From Anaerolineales bacterium (GTDB lineage Bacteria; Chloroflexota; Anaerolineae; Anaerolineales; Villigracilaceae), in the NCBI GenBank assembly GCA_020847435.1, contig JADLBX010000032.1:1-64000 (forward strand): 64,000 nucleotides of DNA, given 5' to 3'. This document shows positions 47,184 to 58,663 of the stretch, in pieces. The notes beneath the pieces are model-generated. The model was not told the origin of the DNA. It made no database searches and saw nothing but the letters and a program-made list of their open reading frames with translations. The position numbers and the translations under genes are program-made. The first letter of the stretch is position 1. Each line of letters starts with the position of its first letter.

Positions 47184-49280
47184 ATGCCCGATCCTTCGTC
47201 TCCGCTCAGGACAAGCCTGCTTCAACAACAAATAATTGACTCGCCCCTCGACTCGAAACTCTTCGTGTCGGGTCCCGCTGGGACGGGGAAAACCACCGCC
47301 GCCGTCGAACGGATGCGTCACCTGCTTGCTCAAGGCGTGCCTGGCGAATCGATTCTCATGCTCACTCCCCAGCGGACTTTGCAAGAGCCGTATCTCGACT
47401 TGCTTTACAGCCCCGAACGACGCGCGGGCGGCGAGGTCACTCCCGCGACAATTGGCGGTCTGGCGCGGCGCATGTGTGACTTGTTCTGGCCTCTCGCAGG
47501 TGAAGCGGGTAAATTTGCGCATCCCGACCAGCCTCCAGTCTTTCTCACTCTCGAAACGGCGCAGTATTACATGGCGCATTTGGTCCGTCCATTGTTGGAC
47601 GAGGGATATTTTGAATCCGTCACGATTGACCGAAATCGTTTGTATTCACAGATCATTGACAACCTCAACAAAGCCGCAGTGATCGGGTTTAAGCACACTG
47701 AAATTGCCACTAAACTCGACGCGTCCTACTTCGGCGACCCCGCCCAGCGCCGCGTCTACGCCGACGCGCAAGATTGCGCCAACCGTTTCCGCCAATATTG
47801 CCTCGACCACAACCTGCTGGATTTTTCCTTGCAACTGGAAACTTTTGCAAATGTTCTGTGGACTCAGGACATTGTGAGCAATTATCTAAAAGGGACATAT
47901 CGCCACCTCATTTACGACAACGTCGAGGAGGACGGTCCCCGTGCACATGATATCGTCGCTGAATGGAGCGCGGACTTCCAGTCCGCCCTGCTGATCTACG
48001 ATGAAGGCGCAGGCTTCCGCTACTTCCTCGGCGCAGACGTGGAAACAGGCTTTGCTTTGCGAAAACTAAGCAATGAGCACATTCAACTGCAAGAAAGTTT
48101 TGTCATGTCGGAGGATGTCTCAAATTTGAGCGATGGGTTGGTGAATGCGATTTCACTCTCCCCAAATTCGGAGAATTTAGGGAAGGCAGGGGAGGGGTCC
48201 GCTCTTTCCATTGTTCAAGCGCACTTTTATCCTGAACTTCTTGATTCAATCGTCAATGAAATCCAGTCTCTAGTCTCTAATTCTCTAATCTCTCCCTCCG
48301 AAATCGTCATCCTCGCCCCCTACCTCTCCGACGCCTTGCGTTTCTCGATCACGCACAGACTCGAAACGAAAAATATCCCTTGGCGTTCGCATCGCCCGTC
48401 GCGCTCGTTGAAGGATGAACCCGCCTCCCACGCGTTGATCACACTTGCCGCGCTGGCGCATCCGCATTGGAATATCCACCCGCCGAAATTTGACGTGGCG
48501 TACGCGTTGATGCAATCCATTGACGGACTCGACCTCGTCCGCGCGCAATTGCTGACCGACATCGTCTACCGTCAACGTGACATCCAACTCTCAACCTTCG
48601 ACCAGATCAAGCCCGACGTGCAGGAACGGATTACTTTTTCAATCGGCAATCGCTGTTCGACTCTTCGAAATTGGATCGAAGAATATCGTGCCTCGGACAG
48701 CCTGCCGCTCGATCACTTCCTCCGCAAATTTTTTGGCGAGGTATTGTCGCAGGCGGGATTTGGCTATCATCGCAACTTCGACTCGATTCGTGTGGCGGCG
48801 AGTTTGGTTGAGTCGGTGAAAAAGTTTCGCCTCGCTTTAGACCTAACAGGTCTCGGAGACCTGTTAGGTCTAGGACGCGAATACATCCAAATGCTGCAAG
48901 ACGGCGTGATCGCCGCGTCGTATCTCGAAGGTTGGCAGAACGAGGACAAAAACGCGGTTCTCGTCGCGCCCGCGCACACGTTCTTGATGATGAACCGTCC
49001 CGTCACGATTCAATTCTGGCTCGACGCTGGCTCGAGTGGATGGTACGAGCGACTCTCCCAACCGCTCACGCATCCGTACGTGTTGAGTAAAAGTTGGCAA
49101 GATGGTCGCCAGTGGACTGACGCGGACGATGTGCAATACAGCAAAGAAGCGATGGCGCGGCTGGTTTCAGGTTTGCTCCACCGATGCCGCGAACGCGTCT
49201 ACTTGGGAATCGCCGAACTCGGCGAAAGCGGATTCGAAGGACGCGGCGAATTGTTGCGTGCGTTTCAAAAGGTTTTATGA
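47184..49280 (+). CDS. UvrD/AddB-like P-loop protein with degenerate motif II
   Basis: Walker A FVSGPAGTGKTTAAVERM; motif Ia-like ILMLTPQRTLQE; LIYDNVEEDGP where DExQD is expected. Confidence 0.7.
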   Translation: MPDPSSPLRTSLLQQQIIDSPLDSKLFVSGPAGTGKTTAAVERMRHLLAQGVPGESILMLTPQRTLQEPYLDLLYSPERRAGGEVTPATIGGLARRMCDLFWPLAGEAGKFAHPDQPPVFLTLETAQYYMAHLVRPLLDEGYFESVTIDRNRLYSQIIDNLNKAAVIGFKHTEIATKLDASYFGDPAQRRVYADAQDCANRFRQYCLDHNLLDFSLQLETFANVLWTQDIVSNYLKGTYRHLIYDNVEEDGPRAHDIVAEWSADFQSALLIYDEGAGFRYFLGADVETGFALRKLSNEHIQLQESFVMSEDVSNLSDGLVNAISLSPNSENLGKAGEGSALSIVQAHFYPELLDSIVNEIQSLVSNSLISPSEIVILAPYLSDALRFSITHRLETKNIPWRSHRPSRSLKDEPASHALITLAALAHPHWNIHPPKFDVAYALMQSIDGLDLVRAQLLTDIVYRQRDIQLSTFDQIKPDVQERITFSIGNRCSTLRNWIEEYRASDSLPLDHFLRKFFGEVLSQAGFGYHRNFDSIRVAASLVESVKKFRLALDLTGLGDLLGLGREYIQMLQDGVIAASYLEGWQNEDKNAVLVAPAHTFLMMNRPVTIQFWLDAGSSGWYERLSQPLTHPYVLSKSWQDGRQWTDADDVQYSKEAMARLVSGLLHRCRERVYLGIAELGESGFEGRGELLRAFQKVL
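48155..48197. repeat. CTCTCCCC-AAATTCGGAGAATTT-AGGG palindromic repeat inside CDS
   Basis: CTCTCCCCAAATTCGGAGAATTTAGGGAAGGCAGGGGAGGGG. Confidence 0.7.
48839..48871. repeat. 33-bp perfect palindrome (15-3-15) inside CDS
   Basis: AGACCTAACAGGTCT-CGG-AGACCTGTTAGGTCT; 33 nt = 11 codons. Confidence 0.92.
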
Positions 49281-49331: not shown

Positions 49332-50345
49332 ATGAACAAAAAACATTTGTTGCTTGCTGTTTCATTTTTCATGCTGGCTTGCGGAGTTGTTGGCGCGCCG
49401 ACGGTTATCCCACCTACCGCGACGAATGCGATTTCAACTGTCCCGCCTGTTGATTCAACGGCTACGACTCCTCCATCCACGGGCGGATCGACAATAGCAA
49501 ACTGTCCGATGTTCCCTGCAAATAACTTTTGGAACGCGCGAGTTGACACGTTGCCTGTGCATCCCGATTCAAACGCGTGGATTGACAGCATCGGGCGCGG
49601 CGAAGGCTTCCACATGGACTTCGGCTCGGGCGAGTGGGACGGGGGTCCGATCGGGATTCCATATAACGTCGTGGTTGGATCAACTGTCCCGTCGTATGAC
49701 GCGGAGTTTTATTATCCCGAAGAATCCGACGCGGGACCGTATCCCATCCCAGAGAATCCAAACATCGAGTGGGGGAGCGATCATCACATTTTGGTCGTGG
49801 ACACCGAGACTTGCACGTTGTACGAAACGTATGACATGAGTTTCGACGGCGCAAATTGGAGCGGCGGCTCGGGCGCGATCTGGGACTTGAACTCGAACGC
49901 CCTGCGCCCCGAAACGTGGACGTCCGCCGACGCGGCGGGTTTGCCGATTCTGCCAGGGTTGGCGCGATACGATGAAATTGCGGCTGGCGAGATTCAGCAC
50001 GCGCTGCGATTCACTGCCGAAGACACGGCGGGATACATTTGGCCCGCGCGGCATCAAACATCCGATCCGCAAAGCGGAATCCCGCCGATGGGCGCTCGCT
50101 TCCGCTTGAAAGCGGATTACGACATTTCGGGTTTCCCGCCTGAGATGCAAATTTTGTTGCAAGCGTTCAAAACGTATGGAATTGTGCTGGCGGATAACGG
50201 CTCGAATTGGTACGTCAGCGGCGCGCCTGATGAACGTTGGGACAACGATAGGCTGCATTTGCTCGATGTGTTGACTGGCGATGATTTTGAGGCGGTGGAT
50301 ACGTCGGTGTTGGTGGTGGAGAGGGATTCGGGTGAGGCGAAATAA
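49332..50345 (+). CDS. Lipoprotein of unknown function
   Basis: Lipobox FFMLACG; complete ORF with SD GAGGA upstream. Confidence 0.7.
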   Translation: MNKKHLLLAVSFFMLACGVVGAPTVIPPTATNAISTVPPVDSTATTPPSTGGSTIANCPMFPANNFWNARVDTLPVHPDSNAWIDSIGRGEGFHMDFGSGEWDGGPIGIPYNVVVGSTVPSYDAEFYYPEESDAGPYPIPENPNIEWGSDHHILVVDTETCTLYETYDMSFDGANWSGGSGAIWDLNSNALRPETWTSADAAGLPILPGLARYDEIAAGEIQHALRFTAEDTAGYIWPARHQTSDPQSGIPPMGARFRLKADYDISGFPPEMQILLQAFKTYGIVLADNGSNWYVSGAPDERWDNDRLHLLDVLTGDDFEAVDTSVLVVERDSGEAK

Positions 50346-50350
50346 AAAAA

Positions 50351-50545
50351 TAACCGCTAAGAGCGCAAAGACCACGAAGAAAGCCAATTAAGATTCTTAG
50401 CGACCTTGGCGGGCTTTGCGGTTCAAAAAAGATTAACCGCTAAGTGCGCGAAGAGCGCAAAGAAAACCAATTAAAAGACCTTAGCGGGCTTTGCGGTTCA
50501 AAACGATTAACCGTTAAGAGCTCGAAGAACACGAGGAAAGACAAG
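50351..50545. repeat. Palindromic AACCGCTAAG repeat units (2 full + left half) upstream of GxxExxY gene
   Basis: Units 50351-50424, 50434-50500, half-unit 50508-50545; ends AACCGCTAAG / TTTGCGGTT. Confidence 0.85.
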
Positions 50546-50554
50546 GAGTTTAGG

Positions 50555-50977
50555 ATGAGCGCTGATATTGAAGCGATTGGGAAAGACATAGTTGACGCCG
50601 CATTTCAAATCCATAAACAATTTGGACCAGGCTTGCTGGAGTCGGCATATCAGGAATGTCATGTATACGAACTTCGGAAGCGCGGAAGGATTGTGCAGGC
50701 AGAATTGGTTTTGCCGATTGAATATGATGGTCAGCAGTTTGATAAGGGGTATCGGATAGATGAATTAGTGGACGATCTCGTTATTGTTGAAAACAAGGCG
50801 GTGGATGAAATTCATCCGATCTTTATGGCGCAACTGCTTACCTACATGAGACTCAAGAATATCAAACTTGGCTTTCTGATAAACTGGAACGTAAAATTAA
50901 TGAAAAATGGAATCCAAAGAGTTGTCCTTGGTCTTGATGAACCGCGCAACCGCGCTGGCTTCATCAAAAAATCTTGA
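50555..50977 (+). CDS. GxxExxY family protein (PD-(D/E)XK nuclease-like)
   Basis: GPGLLESAYQECHVYELRKRG; IDELVDDLVIVENKAVDEIHPIFMAQLLTYMRL. Confidence 0.9.
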   Translation: MSADIEAIGKDIVDAAFQIHKQFGPGLLESAYQECHVYELRKRGRIVQAELVLPIEYDGQQFDKGYRIDELVDDLVIVENKAVDEIHPIFMAQLLTYMRLKNIKLGFLINWNVKLMKNGIQRVVLGLDEPRNRAGFIKKS

Positions 50978-50983
50978 TCTGTT

Positions 50984-51182
50984 CACCGCTAAGTGCGCCA
51001 GGAACGCGAAGGAAAACAAATAAGAATCTTAGCGAACTTTGCGGTCTTGGCGGTTCGTAAAAAACTTTACCGCTAAGCTCGCCAAGATCACGAAGAAAAC
51101 CAATTAAGAATCTTAGCGACCTTTGAGGTCTTGACGGTTCACAAATTAAAAACTTGGCGCACTTAGCGATCTTAGCGGTTAA
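50984..51182. repeat. Palindromic AACCGCTAAG repeat units (2 full + right half) downstream of GxxExxY gene
   Basis: Units 50984-51055, 51069-51141, half-unit 51147-51182 ending CTTAGCGGTTA. Confidence 0.85.
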
Positions 51183-51187
51183 TAATA

Positions 51188-53686
51188 ATGACCTTCACCC
51201 CTCGCCCCTCCCAACAAGAAATCCTCCGCTACAACGGCGGACGGCTCGGCATTGCGGCTGTCCCTGGCGCGGGGAAGACGCACATCCTCTCCGCGTTGGC
51301 GGCGCAGATTATTCAAAGCGGCGCGTTGCAAGACGATCAGGAAGTGCTCATCGTCACACTCGTCAACTCGGCGGTGGACAATTTCGAAGCGCGCATAAAG
51401 CGCTTCTTCGACAATCCTTTGCACGCCCTCTACAAATATCGTGTCCGCACATTGCATGGGCTGGCGCATGACATCGTCCGCGAGAAACCTGCGCGTGTGG
51501 GGCTTGAGGAGCGCTTCAGCATCATTGACGAGCGTGAGGCAGGCTTCATCCGCCGCGAGTCGGTCAATGCGTGGCTGGCGAATCATTCACTGGATGAATA
51601 CCTCGACCCCGCCCTCGATCAATCGAAAATGGATTGGGTCAAGCGTCAGCAACTTCCTGATCTTTTGGACTCCCTCGCCTTAGCCTTTATCCGCTCCTCG
51701 AAAGACCGCCTCTTGACTCCCGAAAGCCTGCGCTCAAAACTGGACGCGTTTCCCACGCCCCTGCCTCTCGCCGAACTTGGCTACAGCATCTACGCGGACT
51801 ATCAACGCGCCCTAGCCTATCGCGGCGCGGTTGACTTCGACGATTTGATTCGACTCGCATTGACCCTCCTCGAAAACGACGAAGAGTATTTAGCGCGTTT
51901 GCAATATCGCTATCCGTATATTTTGGAGGACGAGGCGCAAGATTCGAGTCTCACGCAGGAGAGGATACTTTCGCTTCTCAGTGGTGGTCGAGTAGCCGCG
52001 GAGCGGCGTATCGAGACCACAACGACTGATTTGAATCTAGCCTCTGGTCTCGATACGTCCCGCGAAAAGCGGCGGGACTACTCGACCAGCGAGTTGGGAG
52101 GAAACTGGGTCCGTGTGGGCGACCCGAACCAAGCCATCTTTGAGACGTTCACAACCGCTTCGCCTGAACTGTTGCGCGCCTTCATCCAAAACAACCCAAG
52201 TGTGGATATGCCCGAGTCGGGGCGGTCACAGCCATCAATACTCGCTTTGGCGAATCACCTCATTGATTGGGTGATGATCTCTCATCCCATCCCCGAAGCG
52301 CGGACGGCGCTGTCTGTGCCGCATATTGTCCCTGTGCCAGCGGATGACCCGCAACAGAATCCGCCCGATAACCCTGCGGGCATCAAATTCATCAGCAAAC
52401 GCTATACGCCCGACGAAGAATTGGAAGCGGTGGTCAAATCGGTGAAGGGATATGTCGACTCGATTTGGGATTTCCCCGACGACGACAAACCGACGATTGC
52501 GATCCTTGTCCCGCGTAACCAGCGCGGCGTGGAAGTAGTCAACGCGTTGCGTCAAAAGGGGATTGAGCCGATTGAATTAATTTCAAGCACAAGCGAGACA
52601 CGCGCGGCGGCGGGGTCGTTGAGTTATTTGTTGGCGTATTTGTCCGATCCAAGTTCGGCGCGGAAGTTGTCGAAAGCGTATGAGGTGTTCAGAAGAGACT
52701 GGAGACTGGAGACTGAGGGAGGGCGAAGAGAGGAAGAGAGAATTGGAGAATTAGAGAATTTGACAGCGCGGCGTGAATTGCTTGCGCAGGCGGCGACTCT
52801 GATTCGGAAGATAGGCGATGTGGAAAACTTCGTCGCGCCCCTCACCCTGCCCTCTCCCGAAGGGAGAGGGTATGAGTCCCCCTCTCCAGCGGGAGACGGG
52901 TTAGGGGTGAGGGAGCAGGCGTCCCCTGAGTCTGAAGCGGGCGCCGATCAGGCGCTTCTCCAAGAGTTGGGAGAGTTCCGAGTCGTCGTGCAGAGATGGT
53001 TGAGCGCGGTGACGCTTCCGATTGATCAACTCGTGTTGACGCTGGCGCAGGATGTGTTCACCGAGGTGCATGATCTGGCGCTGGCGCATAAACTGGCGTT
53101 GGTGTTGCGAAAAGCCGCGGACGATCATCCCGATTGGCGACTGCCAGAGTTGACGGCGGAACTGGCGGTGATCGCCAAGAACGAACGGCGCTTCATCGGA
53201 TTCTCGTCGGACGATTCGGGCTTCGACCCCGAACGCCACCGCGGACGGGTGGTGGTGACGACGATGCACAAGGCGAAGGGGCTGGAGTGGGACCGAGTCT
53301 ATTTGATGTCGGTCAATAATTATGACTTCCCGTCGGCGATGCCGAACGACCGTTTTATTTCGGAGAAGTGGTTCGTGCGCAGCGGCTTGGATTTGTCGGC
53401 GGAGGCGTTGGCGCAGTTGACCGCGCTGGGGTGGTCTCGATATGCGCCGCCACCGAACGGTGGCGCTACTCGACCAGCAAATGATGAGTATGACTGGTAC
53501 GAGGAAGGCGCGGCGACATCCCGCTCGCGGCTGGATTATGTGAAGGAACGCCTGCGACTATTCTACGTGGGCATCACACGTGCCAAGCGCGAGTTGTTCG
53601 TCACGTGGAATTCAGGCAGGCAGGGCGATGCGACGCCGTCCTTGCCCTTGTCCGAGTTGATGGGGTGGTGGGAGGAGCAAGGATGA
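51188..53686 (+). CDS. UvrD/PcrA-like ATP-dependent DNA helicase with repeat-derived insertions
   Basis: IAAVPGAGKTHIL; YILEDEAQDSS; VRVGDPNQAIFETF; VVTTMHKAKGLEWDRVYLM; LRLFYVGITRAKRELFVTW. Confidence 0.92.
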   Translation: MTFTPRPSQQEILRYNGGRLGIAAVPGAGKTHILSALAAQIIQSGALQDDQEVLIVTLVNSAVDNFEARIKRFFDNPLHALYKYRVRTLHGLAHDIVREKPARVGLEERFSIIDEREAGFIRRESVNAWLANHSLDEYLDPALDQSKMDWVKRQQLPDLLDSLALAFIRSSKDRLLTPESLRSKLDAFPTPLPLAELGYSIYADYQRALAYRGAVDFDDLIRLALTLLENDEEYLARLQYRYPYILEDEAQDSSLTQERILSLLSGGRVAAERRIETTTTDLNLASGLDTSREKRRDYSTSELGGNWVRVGDPNQAIFETFTTASPELLRAFIQNNPSVDMPESGRSQPSILALANHLIDWVMISHPIPEARTALSVPHIVPVPADDPQQNPPDNPAGIKFISKRYTPDEELEAVVKSVKGYVDSIWDFPDDDKPTIAILVPRNQRGVEVVNALRQKGIEPIELISSTSETRAAAGSLSYLLAYLSDPSSARKLSKAYEVFRRDWRLETEGGRREEERIGELENLTARRELLAQAATLIRKIGDVENFVAPLTLPSPEGRGYESPSPAGDGLGVREQASPESEAGADQALLQELGEFRVVVQRWLSAVTLPIDQLVLTLAQDVFTEVHDLALAHKLALVLRKAADDHPDWRLPELTAELAVIAKNERRFIGFSSDDSGFDPERHRGRVVVTTMHKAKGLEWDRVYLMSVNNYDFPSAMPNDRFISEKWFVRSGLDLSAEALAQLTALGWSRYAPPPNGGATRPANDEYDWYEEGAATSRSRLDYVKERLRLFYVGITRAKRELFVTWNSGRQGDATPSLPLSELMGWWEEQG
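51985..52088. repeat. Two inverted copies of TGGTCTCGATACG...CTACTCGACCA inside helicase CDS
   Basis: 51985-52019 (minus orientation) and 52045-52088 (plus orientation). Confidence 0.9.
52838..52915. repeat. GC-rich palindromic repeat inside helicase CDS
   Basis: CCCCTCACCCTG-CCCTCTCCC-GAA-GGGAGAGGG...GGGTTAGGGGTGAGGG; encoded APLTLPSPEGRGYESPSPAGDGLGVRE. Confidence 0.85.
53432..53476. repeat. TGGTCTCGATATG...CTACTCGACCA inside helicase CDS
   Basis: TGGTCTCGATATGCGCCGCCACCGAACGGTGGCGCTACTCGACCA. Confidence 0.9.
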
Positions 53687-53745
53687 ATGCAGAAGGATGA
53701 AGGGTGAAAACGGGATATAATGCCGATAGATAATGAGAGGCGCCA

Positions 53746-53982
53746 ATGAATAAAACACTCAATCAATTATCTCCTGATGAGTTCGAAGGCTTGGTCGAGC
53801 GCGCTGTGGACAGACGGCTCGAAGTCTGGATGACTCAATTGATGGACGCGCTCACCAGCATTGACGAACCTGCCAGTGAGTTTCGCCCCGAGTTTGCCGA
53901 CTCCTTGCGAAAAGCGATCCTGCAATCGGAGGCGGGCGAGGGCATGGATTTGAAATCCTTCCGCGCCGAGATTGGGGAATGA
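53746..53982 (+). CDS. Small antitoxin-like protein (orphan)
   Basis: 78 aa MNKTLNQLSPDEFEGLVERAVDRRLEVWM...; layout typical of small antitoxins; no adjacent RelE/PIN toxin recognised. Confidence 0.5.
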   Translation: MNKTLNQLSPDEFEGLVERAVDRRLEVWMTQLMDALTSIDEPASEFRPEFADSLRKAILQSEAGEGMDLKSFRAEIGE

Positions 53983-53994
53983 AGAAGGGAAAGT

Positions 53995-54087
53995 GAGTTG
54001 TTCGTGATATGGAATTCAGGCAGGCAGGGCCATACGACACCGAGTTTGCCGCTGAGTGAGTTGATGGGGTGGTGGGAGGGGATGTGA
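53995..54087 (+). pseudogene. Duplicated 3' end of the UvrD-like gene
   Basis: Encodes ELFVIWNSGRQGHTTPSLPLSELMGWWEGM*; compare UvrD C-terminus ELFVTWNSGRQGDATPSLPLSELMGWWEEQG*. Confidence 0.9.
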
Positions 54088-55100
54088 AGTTGTCGCCCAA
54101 CAAAAATCATGTACAATTACATCCTGTGAATGGGTTATATGACTTTCGGTTAGCAGACGTTTCAATTGACACACTTGTTGCTGTCTTAGAAGCAGTTGCG
54201 TCCCATAAAACTGATGATGTTTTGCAAGTTGCAAATTTCGCAGGTCTTGCCAGATCAACGGTATCACGAGCTCTTTTAACTCTACAATCTTTGAGGTTGG
54301 TCGATAAAGATGAAGCAAACTCTTATTTTTGTTGTGTGCCGCAGGTGCGGCGCGGCATGTCAAATAGTGAAATTAGATTTTATCTTAGAAAAGCTTTGAT
54401 TTCCTATAGACCATTTGAAGCTGTCTGTGAGGGGCTTGCACTTAATGAATCGTTGAGCGTGGCAATAAGAAAAGCATCTGTTCTTTTGGAGATTAATGAT
54501 GAAGGCGAGGAAAGATTCAACATATTGATGAAATGGGGGCGCGATCTGGGTGTTCTTACTCAAGAAAACGGAGATGTAGGGCTCACAATAGATATTGGAA
54601 CTATCGAGTCGTCAGCTGAAACTTCAATTATTACAAATGAGGATATTGAGTCAGAAGTTAAGGCTCGTTTATATATTTCTCTGAAACTTGGAAGAGAACT
54701 TTACAATATTCTGGCGGAAAACGAAAGATTGCTATTAGCACAAGCTGTGCTAAAATTTGCATCAGACCCAGATGATGCGATAGAAAAATCGGGACAAGCT
54801 CTCGAGAATTTCTTGCGTGAGGCTGCAACTGCAAAAGGCTTGAGGCAAGAGGCGTCCAAACTAAATGGATCTTCTCAACTAGGTAATTTACTTGCTAGTC
54901 AAGGTTTAATACATAGCCATCATCAAAAAACAATAGATGCAGTAAGTATGTTTAGAAATGCAAAGGTGCACAACAAGGACAAAAAGACGTTGACTCCTTG
55001 GGAATTGACACCTCTAGCTTCTTTTTCATCTGTGCTAGGAGTGCTTCTAACGCTGAAATCTTTGCATGAATATATGCAGAATGGGAGACAAATATTATGA
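54084..55100 (+). CDS. wHTH + C-terminal HEPN-like protein (putative toxin/defence protein)
   Basis: wHTH FAGLARSTVSRALLTLQSLRLVDKD; helical C-terminus with RNAKVH (R-N-x-x-x-H) at 54954-54971; GTG start overlapping UvrD-remnant stop. Confidence 0.6.
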   Translation: MKLSPNKNHVQLHPVNGLYDFRLADVSIDTLVAVLEAVASHKTDDVLQVANFAGLARSTVSRALLTLQSLRLVDKDEANSYFCCVPQVRRGMSNSEIRFYLRKALISYRPFEAVCEGLALNESLSVAIRKASVLLEINDEGEERFNILMKWGRDLGVLTQENGDVGLTIDIGTIESSAETSIITNEDIESEVKARLYISLKLGRELYNILAENERLLLAQAVLKFASDPDDAIEKSGQALENFLREAATAKGLRQEASKLNGSSQLGNLLASQGLIHSHHQKTIDAVSMFRNAKVHNKDKKTLTPWELTPLASFSSVLGVLLTLKSLHEYMQNGRQIL

Positions 55101-56545: not shown

Positions 56546-58228
56546 TCAACCTCCGACCTTCGCCGCGTAGTCGCTGTAGCCGCCGATGAATTCGGTGATG
56601 TGGGAATCCTTTAGCTCGAACACGCGGTTGACGGTGCGGTCGAGAAAATATCGGTCGTGCGAGATGACAAGTACGGTCCCGTTGAAATCTTCCAGCGCGT
56701 TCTCCAACACTTCGGCGGAGGCGATATCGAGATTGTTCGTCGGTTCATCCAGCAACAGGAAGTTGGCTCCCGATAGGACGAGTAACGCCAACTGAAGCCG
56801 ACTCCGCTCGCCGCCCGAGAGTGAGCCGACCCTTTGAGTCGCTTGACGATAGGTGAACAGGTAGCGGGTCAGAAAAGAAACGGCGCGTCCTTCGCTCATG
56901 TTGCCGCTGAGTCGCACCGCGTCCATGACTGTCTGATCAAAATCCAGCGTCTCATGCTCTTGCGCGTAATATCCCACCTTCACGCTCGGACCGAGTTTGA
57001 TCTCTCCGCTGGTCGGCGATTCTTTTTCCAGAATCAAACGCAATAACACAGACTTCCCCGCGCCGTTCGCGCCGATCAACCCCACGCGCTCGCCATGCCG
57101 AATGAGGAAGTTGAGATCGTTCAATATCGCTGGTCGAGTAGTCCCGCGATGCTCGTCGCGGGACGTATCGAGACCAGAGGTTGGATGTGCAAACGACTTG
57201 CTCACCCTCTCAAACTCCAAGACCTGATTCGACCCGCGCCAACCGTTCAACGCCAAATCCATTTTTCGGCGTTCCGTCACGGGCTTTTCGATCTTATCCA
57301 TTTTGTCCAAGCGCTTTTGCATGGACTTGGCTTTCTTTGCAAATTTCTCGTTGTCAAACACTTTGCCCCACATGGCAAAGCGTTTGATGGCGGTTTCCAA
57401 TCTGCCGATCTCGCGTTGTTGAACGCGATACAACTCCTCCTGTCGAGCGAGTCGTTCCTCTTTATCAAGGATGTATTCCGTGTAATTTCCGATGAACGTT
57501 GTGATTTTGCCGTCTTCGATCTCCGCGATGTGACTCGCCACCGCGTCGAGGATGTATCGGTCGTGCGAGATGATGACCACCGCGCCCGCGTAGTCGTTGA
57601 TCAGTTTTTCCAAATACGCTTTGCCTGGCATATCGAGGTGATTGTCTGGTTCGTCGAGCAACAGAACAGACGGACGCGCCAGTAACAGCCGCGCCAACCC
57701 GATCAGTTTTTTCTGCCCTCCGCTCAAGGCGTGGATGGGTTTCTCGAAATCCGATTCGGGCAGACCTAGTCCGCGCAGTGTTTCCCTCGCGCGTGATTCG
57801 TAATTTGCTCCGCCGAGCGCTTCAAACTCTCCCAACAATTTGTGTTGCGCGTCGAGGGCGCGTTCCAATTTTTTGGAATCGCCATAAACGGCGGGGTCGG
57901 CGAGTTTCGATTCAACGAGATGCAACTCCGCTTCCACCTCTGCCACGCGTGGATTTCCCTCCAGCGCGAGCGAGAGCGCTGTCCGTTGCGGGTCAAATTC
58001 GGGATGTTGAGGCAGGTAGCCCACCGTCACACCTTTGGCGCGGACGATCGTCCCGCCTTTTTCTGGTGCGTGTTCGCCGACGATTATCTTAAGCAACGAA
58101 GACTTCCCCGCGCCGTTCGGTCCGATCAGCCCGATCTTCTGGTCGTGCTGGATTTCCCAACTCAAGTCGCGGAAGATGGCGTGCGCGCCGAGAATAAGGC
58201 TGGCGTTTGAAATTGTGATTGAAATCAT
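56546..58228 (-). CDS. ABC-F family ATP-binding protein
   Basis: Two ABC domains: GPNGAGKSSLLKIIVG/LSGGQKKLIGLARLLL and GANGAGKSVLLRLIL/LSGGERSRLQLALL; DEPDNHLD and DEPTNNLD. Confidence 0.93.
   Translation of the reverse strand: MISITISNASLILGAHAIFRDLSWEIQHDQKIGLIGPNGAGKSSLLKIIVGEHAPEKGGTIVRAKGVTVGYLPQHPEFDPQRTALSLALEGNPRVAEVEAELHLVESKLADPAVYGDSKKLERALDAQHKLLGEFEALGGANYESRARETLRGLGLPESDFEKPIHALSGGQKKLIGLARLLLARPSVLLLDEPDNHLDMPGKAYLEKLINDYAGAVVIISHDRYILDAVASHIAEIEDGKITTFIGNYTEYILDKEERLARQEELYRVQQREIGRLETAIKRFAMWGKVFDNEKFAKKAKSMQKRLDKMDKIEKPVTERRKMDLALNGWRGSNQVLEFERVSKSFAHPTSGLDTSRDEHRGTTRPAILNDLNFLIRHGERVGLIGANGAGKSVLLRLILEKESPTSGEIKLGPSVKVGYYAQEHETLDFDQTVMDAVRLSGNMSEGRAVSFLTRYLFTYRQATQRVGSLSGGERSRLQLALLVLSGANFLLLDEPTNNLDIASAEVLENALEDFNGTVLVISHDRYFLDRTVNRVFELKDSHITEFIGGYSDYAAKVGG
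57132..57177. repeat. TGGTCTCGATACG...CTACTCGACCA repeat inside ABC-F CDS
   Basis: TGGTCGAGTAGTCCCGCGATGCTCGTCGCGGGACGTATCGAGACCA; encoded GLDTSRDEHRGTTRP. Confidence 0.92.
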
Positions 58229-58230
58229 AA

Positions 58231-58263
58231 AGACCTCACAGGTCTGAGAGACCTGTGAGGTCT
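58231..58263. repeat. 33-bp perfect palindrome (15-3-15) abutting the ABC-F start codon
   Basis: AGACCTCACAGGTCT-GAG-AGACCTGTGAGGTCT. Confidence 0.92.
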
Positions 58264-58663
58264 CCCAAACAAATATTAAACAAAAAACGCCGCGACGCTC
58301 CTGCGCCACGGCGTGATAAACAAAAACATCGTTTAGTCAGTAGGCGCGATTCGAGGAAGCCGCGCGCGCTCAAATCCACGCACACCGATGCAAAGGAAGG
58401 AGTTGCCTGATCTTTCGTATCGCATGGCGCGGATTATAACAGTCCCTGCCCAATCTGCAAACATTCTGATAAAATACCGCCCGCACGTCATGAACCTCGG
58501 AAGGCTCTCGAAAGCCCTCGGTCGTATCGGCTGGGGCTTTTTTGTTGAAAAGTAAACAAGAAAACAAGTAGGCACGTAGAAAAGCAAATACGAAGTACGC
58601 AATACGCAATACTCTGCCCGACTACCAAACCATCCAACTACCAAACAAAAGAACTATCAAACT

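Follow-up and report, generated by a model that had tools for sequence, protein, structure and literature searches.

The question raised by this locus is whether a palindromic repeat pair, which lies in frame within a helicase gene between the conserved motifs II and III, was recruited as a functional part of the protein, as proposed in a preliminary description of the DNA, or is a tolerated and replaceable insert. The locus was analysed within a 64,000-nucleotide stretch of an Anaerolineales (Chloroflexota) genome, here called the window.

The helicase gene and its palindromic insert

The UvrD-like SF1 helicase gene (positions 51188-53686, plus strand) encodes 832 amino acids in a reading frame that runs unbroken through the repeat. 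Its product matches the Pfam families UvrD-helicase (PF00580) and UvrD_C (PF13361), and among known folds in PDB it matches UvrD/PcrA first, followed by AdnAB and AddAB. The core is under purifying selection (dN/dS of 0.05-0.13 in close pairs, with the variable places left out). Its operon partner, an AddB-like gene, lies upstream (47184-49280), an arrangement found in the loci of many relatives.

The insert comprises two copies, in opposite orientation, of a single palindromic repeat, TGGTCGAGTAG-hairpin-CGTATCGAGACCA, termed here family A, with the GTAG tags outermost as in REPIN-like dimers. Its limits, set from the conservation of the flanks, are approximately 51982-52091, corresponding to a protein insert of about residues 267-304. 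The left half-unit, GGTCGAGTAG-tip-CGTATCGAGACC (51986-52018, minus strand), has 4 bp of tip pairing next to the arms, and the right half-unit, GGTCTCGATACG-tip-CTACTCGACC (52046-52087, plus strand), has a tip of 6 bp; a spacer of 27 bp separates them. The outer arms TGGTCGAGTAG are identical at 51985-51995 and 52078-52088, and the arms are common to both copies, but the hairpin tips differ (CCGCGGAGCGG vs. TCCCGCCGCTTTTCGCGGGA). The combined structure folds far better than shuffled sequences (z = -6.0), and a search of Rfam gave no match at E up to 1 within 50300-54200. The distance from motif II (DEAQDSS) to motif III (GDPNQAI) is 56 residues in the window and 17-20 residues in orthologues free of the insert, in agreement with the earlier statement that a short linker is the normal state. 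Assembly error as the source of the insert was ruled out, as open-frame inserts are present in many independent assemblies.

The AlphaFold model of the helicase is moderate overall (mean pLDDT of 73, pTM of 0.58), with values below 50 at residues 268-304, 510-517, 554-585 and 750-769, i.e. at all four insertion-prone places, although some other stretches also score low. This suggests that the four places are flexible, with poor alignment there also contributing to the low score, and it agrees with the proposal that the insert forms a loop. We infer that this loop is exposed on the protein surface, that the insert is translated and that the helicase carrying it functions normally. The second variable place (about residues 507-524; 52706-52760, plus strand) has inserts of at least 8 residues, of several repeat types, in 40 of the 71 orthologues; in one locus (L050) tandem MSLRGTKQSPDE repeats make up a 108-residue insert at one point. 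The third place (52838-52924, plus strand) contains in frame a repeat of another family, C (CCCTCTCCC..GGGAGAGGG..GGGGTGAGGG), which encodes approximately PLTLPSPEGRGYESPSPAGDGLGVRE, and the fourth (53433-53475, plus strand) contains in frame a single family A half-unit encoding WSRYAPPPNGGATRP.

In the neighborhood of the helicase, a GxxExxY (PDDEXK_3) gene (50444-50977), in the interval 50344-51185, is bracketed by copies of a AACCGCTAAG..CTTAGCGGTT repeat, and in many relatives this interval is occupied by a GxxExxY or a Y1 gene. An 84% copy of the helicase gene's end is located downstream of the helicase (53995-54079) and looks like the remnant of a partial duplication; G012 and G019 also have similar C-terminal helicase fragments close to the gene. 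The synteny shared by G012 and the window is too short for use as a control.

Family A across the genome

The arm motif GGTYTCGATACG occurs in 125 copies in the genome, while the reversed pattern used as a control occurs in none, which argues that the insert is not a product of chance and bears out the earlier description of a dispersed, presumably mobile palindrome. We collected 115 half-units from the window and from stretches around repeat copies. The arms GGTCGAGTAG and CGTATCGAGACC are near-invariant among them (the search pattern itself required part of the arms), and the GTAG positions, located between the conserved outer arm and the hypervariable tip, are conserved in 98-100%, a percentage biased upward because part of the flanking arm was required by the search pattern. 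The ends of family A are GTAG and CGTATC, and a near-invariant outer YGNT precedes GGTCGAG in all copies. Inverted dimers with spacers of about 50 bp and GTAG outermost are numerous.

The tips exhibit a different behavior from the arms. Among 108 intact copies there are 99 different tips, 72% of which form a stem of at least 4 bp, as compared to 20% in shuffles. In 92 distinct tips of at least 11 nt, the four positions adjoining the arms are Watson-Crick paired in 85-95% of cases, with 3-4 pair types at each position, while random re-pairing of the same letters yields 29-57%; the tip sequence thus changes while its pairing is kept. The two helicase copies, alike in their arms and unlike in their tips, show that the repeat is not a fixed unit of 44 bp. 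Some tips in G000 (L133-L192) contain sequence resembling family B, another of the repeat families described below.

Approximately 17 of the 115 half-units are located in coding-like ORFs and about 98 outside them, with coding status assigned from ORF length, codon score and Pfam domains; at an assumed coding density of 85%, this depletion from coding sequence is extreme. Four coding half-units are located in the window, three of them in the helicase gene. The ten other host ORFs that were scanned all possess Pfam domains, and the hosts of in-frame copies include TrpA, PyrD, Mfd, EutA, a chorismate-binding/aminotransferase protein and PKS/NRPS. Within the window, the gene for an ABC-F ATPase (56546-58309, minus strand) contains a family A half-unit in frame (57132-57175, minus strand), and at one point of this gene five relatives have inserts that differ, including family A and a C-like one. 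Such sharing of a slot indicates that the pattern extends beyond the helicase.

Turnover at the motif II-III slot

In distant orthologues the slot is empty, with a linker of about 20 amino acids (17-20 residues); a homologous protein segment lacking the palindrome was looked for in these orthologues, and only the short linker was found. Of the 71 orthologues that were aligned, 41 have an insert of 8 or more residues at the identical point. According to the DNA sequences, at least five types of repeat occupy the slot: family A (GGTCGAG/TCGATACG), family B (CTGAGCGGAG..GTCGAAGGG), family C (CCCTCTCCC..GGGAGAGGG), family D (GGGGNNACCCCGCCCCTAC) and a G/C-run type (F); nested inserts also exist, e.g. 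A inside B in L074. Of the four families checked for copy number in congeners (A, B, C and D), A, C and D are multi-copy and B is weakly so, as judged by its 12-mer.

On a helicase tree calculated without the variable places, with the final slot labels assigned by hand from the sequences, the slot state changes at least 32 times over 67 labelled rows, counts in which gain and loss are not separable and some of which lateral exchange of alleles may account for. Taken separately, the distinction of filled from empty slots requires 13 changes and the states among filled rows require 22. Sister pairs with 93-97% core identity differ in slot state: the window (A) and L062 (B) share 96% core identity and have unrelated repeats in the slot, L034 (A) and L035 (C) share 95.5%, and L029 (no insert) and L038 (D) share 97%. 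Such sisters with unrelated repeats indicate that repeats keep landing harmlessly, rather than that one element was tamed, and the finding that close relatives have other repeats there, or no insert at all, speaks for a tolerated, replaceable insert and against the claim that the palindrome was domesticated, as the element has not been kept.

Among the genes compared, none shows the pattern as strongly as the helicase does at this slot. For the AddB-like partner, 11 inserts were counted over 27 proteins, with at most 3 at one point, as compared to 41 of 71 at the helicase slot (Fisher p = 3e-5). The insert totals are 111 in 71 for the helicase, 31 in 23 for Mfd and 10 in 17 for ABC-F; some of the inserts counted are not repeats, and the sets differ in breadth.

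We propose, with a probability of roughly 0.8, that a REP dimer entered this UvrD-like helicase of the AddAB/AdnAB type in frame, at a permissive loop, and was tolerated there, and that the slot has been refilled by different families. On this view the genomes in question are heavily laden with several families of REP-type palindromes, selection purges most of the copies from coding DNA, and the survivors gather in a few flexible loops that tolerate extra residues; collected in this manner, they would fill, empty and refill the same slot with different families across species. Tolerance rather than benefit, i.e. neutrality, would govern the outcome, and an HUH (Y1) transposase of the TnpA-REP/RAYT kind may provide the mobility. 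Tolerance under a heavy repeat load accounts for most of the pattern, but alone it leaves unexplained why the helicase has far more inserts than its AddB-like partner.

HUH (Y1) genes are present in the genome, and its RAYT-like proteins include a 213-aa MPETIYYRRKL type (L206). Neither at the five listed Y1 loci of this genome (a draft, 88.6% complete) nor at 16 loci from relatives were family A hairpins found to flank the Y1 gene, and none of the Y1/RAYT genes examined in this genome has family A repeats on its flanks. In 13 loci (L010, L012, L015, L016, L020, L021, L023, L024, L027, L030, L032, L038 and L077), the helicase has upstream of it, in the same orientation and mostly within a few hundred bases, a gene for an IS200-like Y1 transposase of about 136 amino acids. 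Co-evolution of this gene with the helicase was rejected, because their identities are uncorrelated (rho 0.17, p 0.14), and a dedicated pair is not supported.

The sister species with A and B inserts have the right-hand flank GAGTTGGGAGG in common, which, at the level of sequence, suggests in-place replacement or gene exchange beyond independent insertion alone. The apparent swapping might largely reflect lateral exchange of helicase alleles between species instead of repeated new insertions: the window resembles L009 in the spacer of its A dimer, and L010, L051 and L062 have similar B inserts, while the window groups with L062. Exchange alone could not produce five families, however, and many mixed pairs belong to groups that are distinct and well supported in the core tree, so that we regard this account as possible but rather doubtful for the bulk of the changes.

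Somewhat less probable, and in our opinion unlikely, is that the slot is a true DNA target, in which HUH transposases guide repeats to a short Ser-Gly codon sequence and precise excision and re-insertion cause the swaps. The outer YGNT before GGTCGAG could indeed come from the AGTGGT/TCTGGT codons of the loop, A and B have the same boundaries in close relatives, and HUH enzymes of this type select cleavage dinucleotides via GTAG (PMC8266576). On the other hand, the conserved YGNT may be just an extended stem of the element, the unrelated families C and D, with other ends, use the same slot, and with a native loop of 2-3 residues position alone cannot separate targeting from tolerance.

It is very improbable that the swapping is adaptive or directed, with the loops of AddAB-like helicases forming a fast-changing surface by HUH-mediated exchange of REPs at a fixed site; if true, such a surface could act, e.g., against phage inhibitors of RecBCD-type enzymes. 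A single domestication of the palindrome as a functional surface loop, with which the open frame, the low model confidence of the loop and purifying selection on the protein would agree, is the least credible account, being largely refuted by the swapping of families between sister species, some of which have no insert, and by inserts unrelated in sequence and length.

The slot offers a natural series over dozens of species, in which one protein loop carries different mobile repeats or none, so that one can measure directly, in a conserved enzyme, how far new protein segments are tolerated and how fast REPs are gained and lost. The case also calls for caution, as additional stretches of Anaerolineales proteins may derive from repeats instead of being functional domains.

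Relationship to known repeat systems

In its layout the insert corresponds to GTAG-tagged REP dimers, i.e. REPIN-like, non-autonomous palindromic elements. GTAG REPs have the tetranucleotide at the foot of a stem-loop with compensatory changes, form head-to-head dimers 20-100 bp apart and are mostly extragenic (Di Nocera et al. 2013, PMC3733652). Family A likewise has GTAG at the foot of the palindrome, compensated stem changes, high copy number and a mainly extragenic location, and, as in REPINs, two REPs are inverted around a spacer. It differs in that its GTAG has a conserved outer arm on one side and a hypervariable tip on the other and in that no flanking RAYT was found at the Y1 loci examined. 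With the TnpA-REP/RAYT and IS200/IS605 HUH elements, family A shares hairpins, which in those systems are substrates recognised as single strands, and GTAG, which guides cleavage there and through which the cleavage dinucleotides are chosen in the cases studied (PMC8266576); in contrast to them, no cognate transposase is linked to family A here.

The likeness to Rickettsia palindromic elements drawn in the preliminary description holds as a concept, since in both cases palindromes are inserted in frame, and tolerated, in many conserved genes. The Rickettsia elements examined end in CGTC (PMC3733652), a tag absent from family A, which has GTAG/CGTATC ends and belongs to a different phylum, and we claim no relation in sequence.

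In-frame REPs are already known; many lie in genes for replication and repair, UvrD/Rep helicases among them, and in two recB genes of Xanthomonas different REPs occupy approximately the same site (PMC3733652). In the limited library consulted, where absence is not proof, we found for Chloroflexota GTAG repeats as such, but no report of the same-slot pattern. The helicase slot shares with the known GTAG REPs and REPINs the occurrence of some copies in frame in repair genes, and departs from them in that one slot receives at least five repeat types over dozens of species, with turnover between sisters. What is new is this clade-wide turnover of multiple families at the same slot, together with hairpin tips that are hypervariable yet base-paired.
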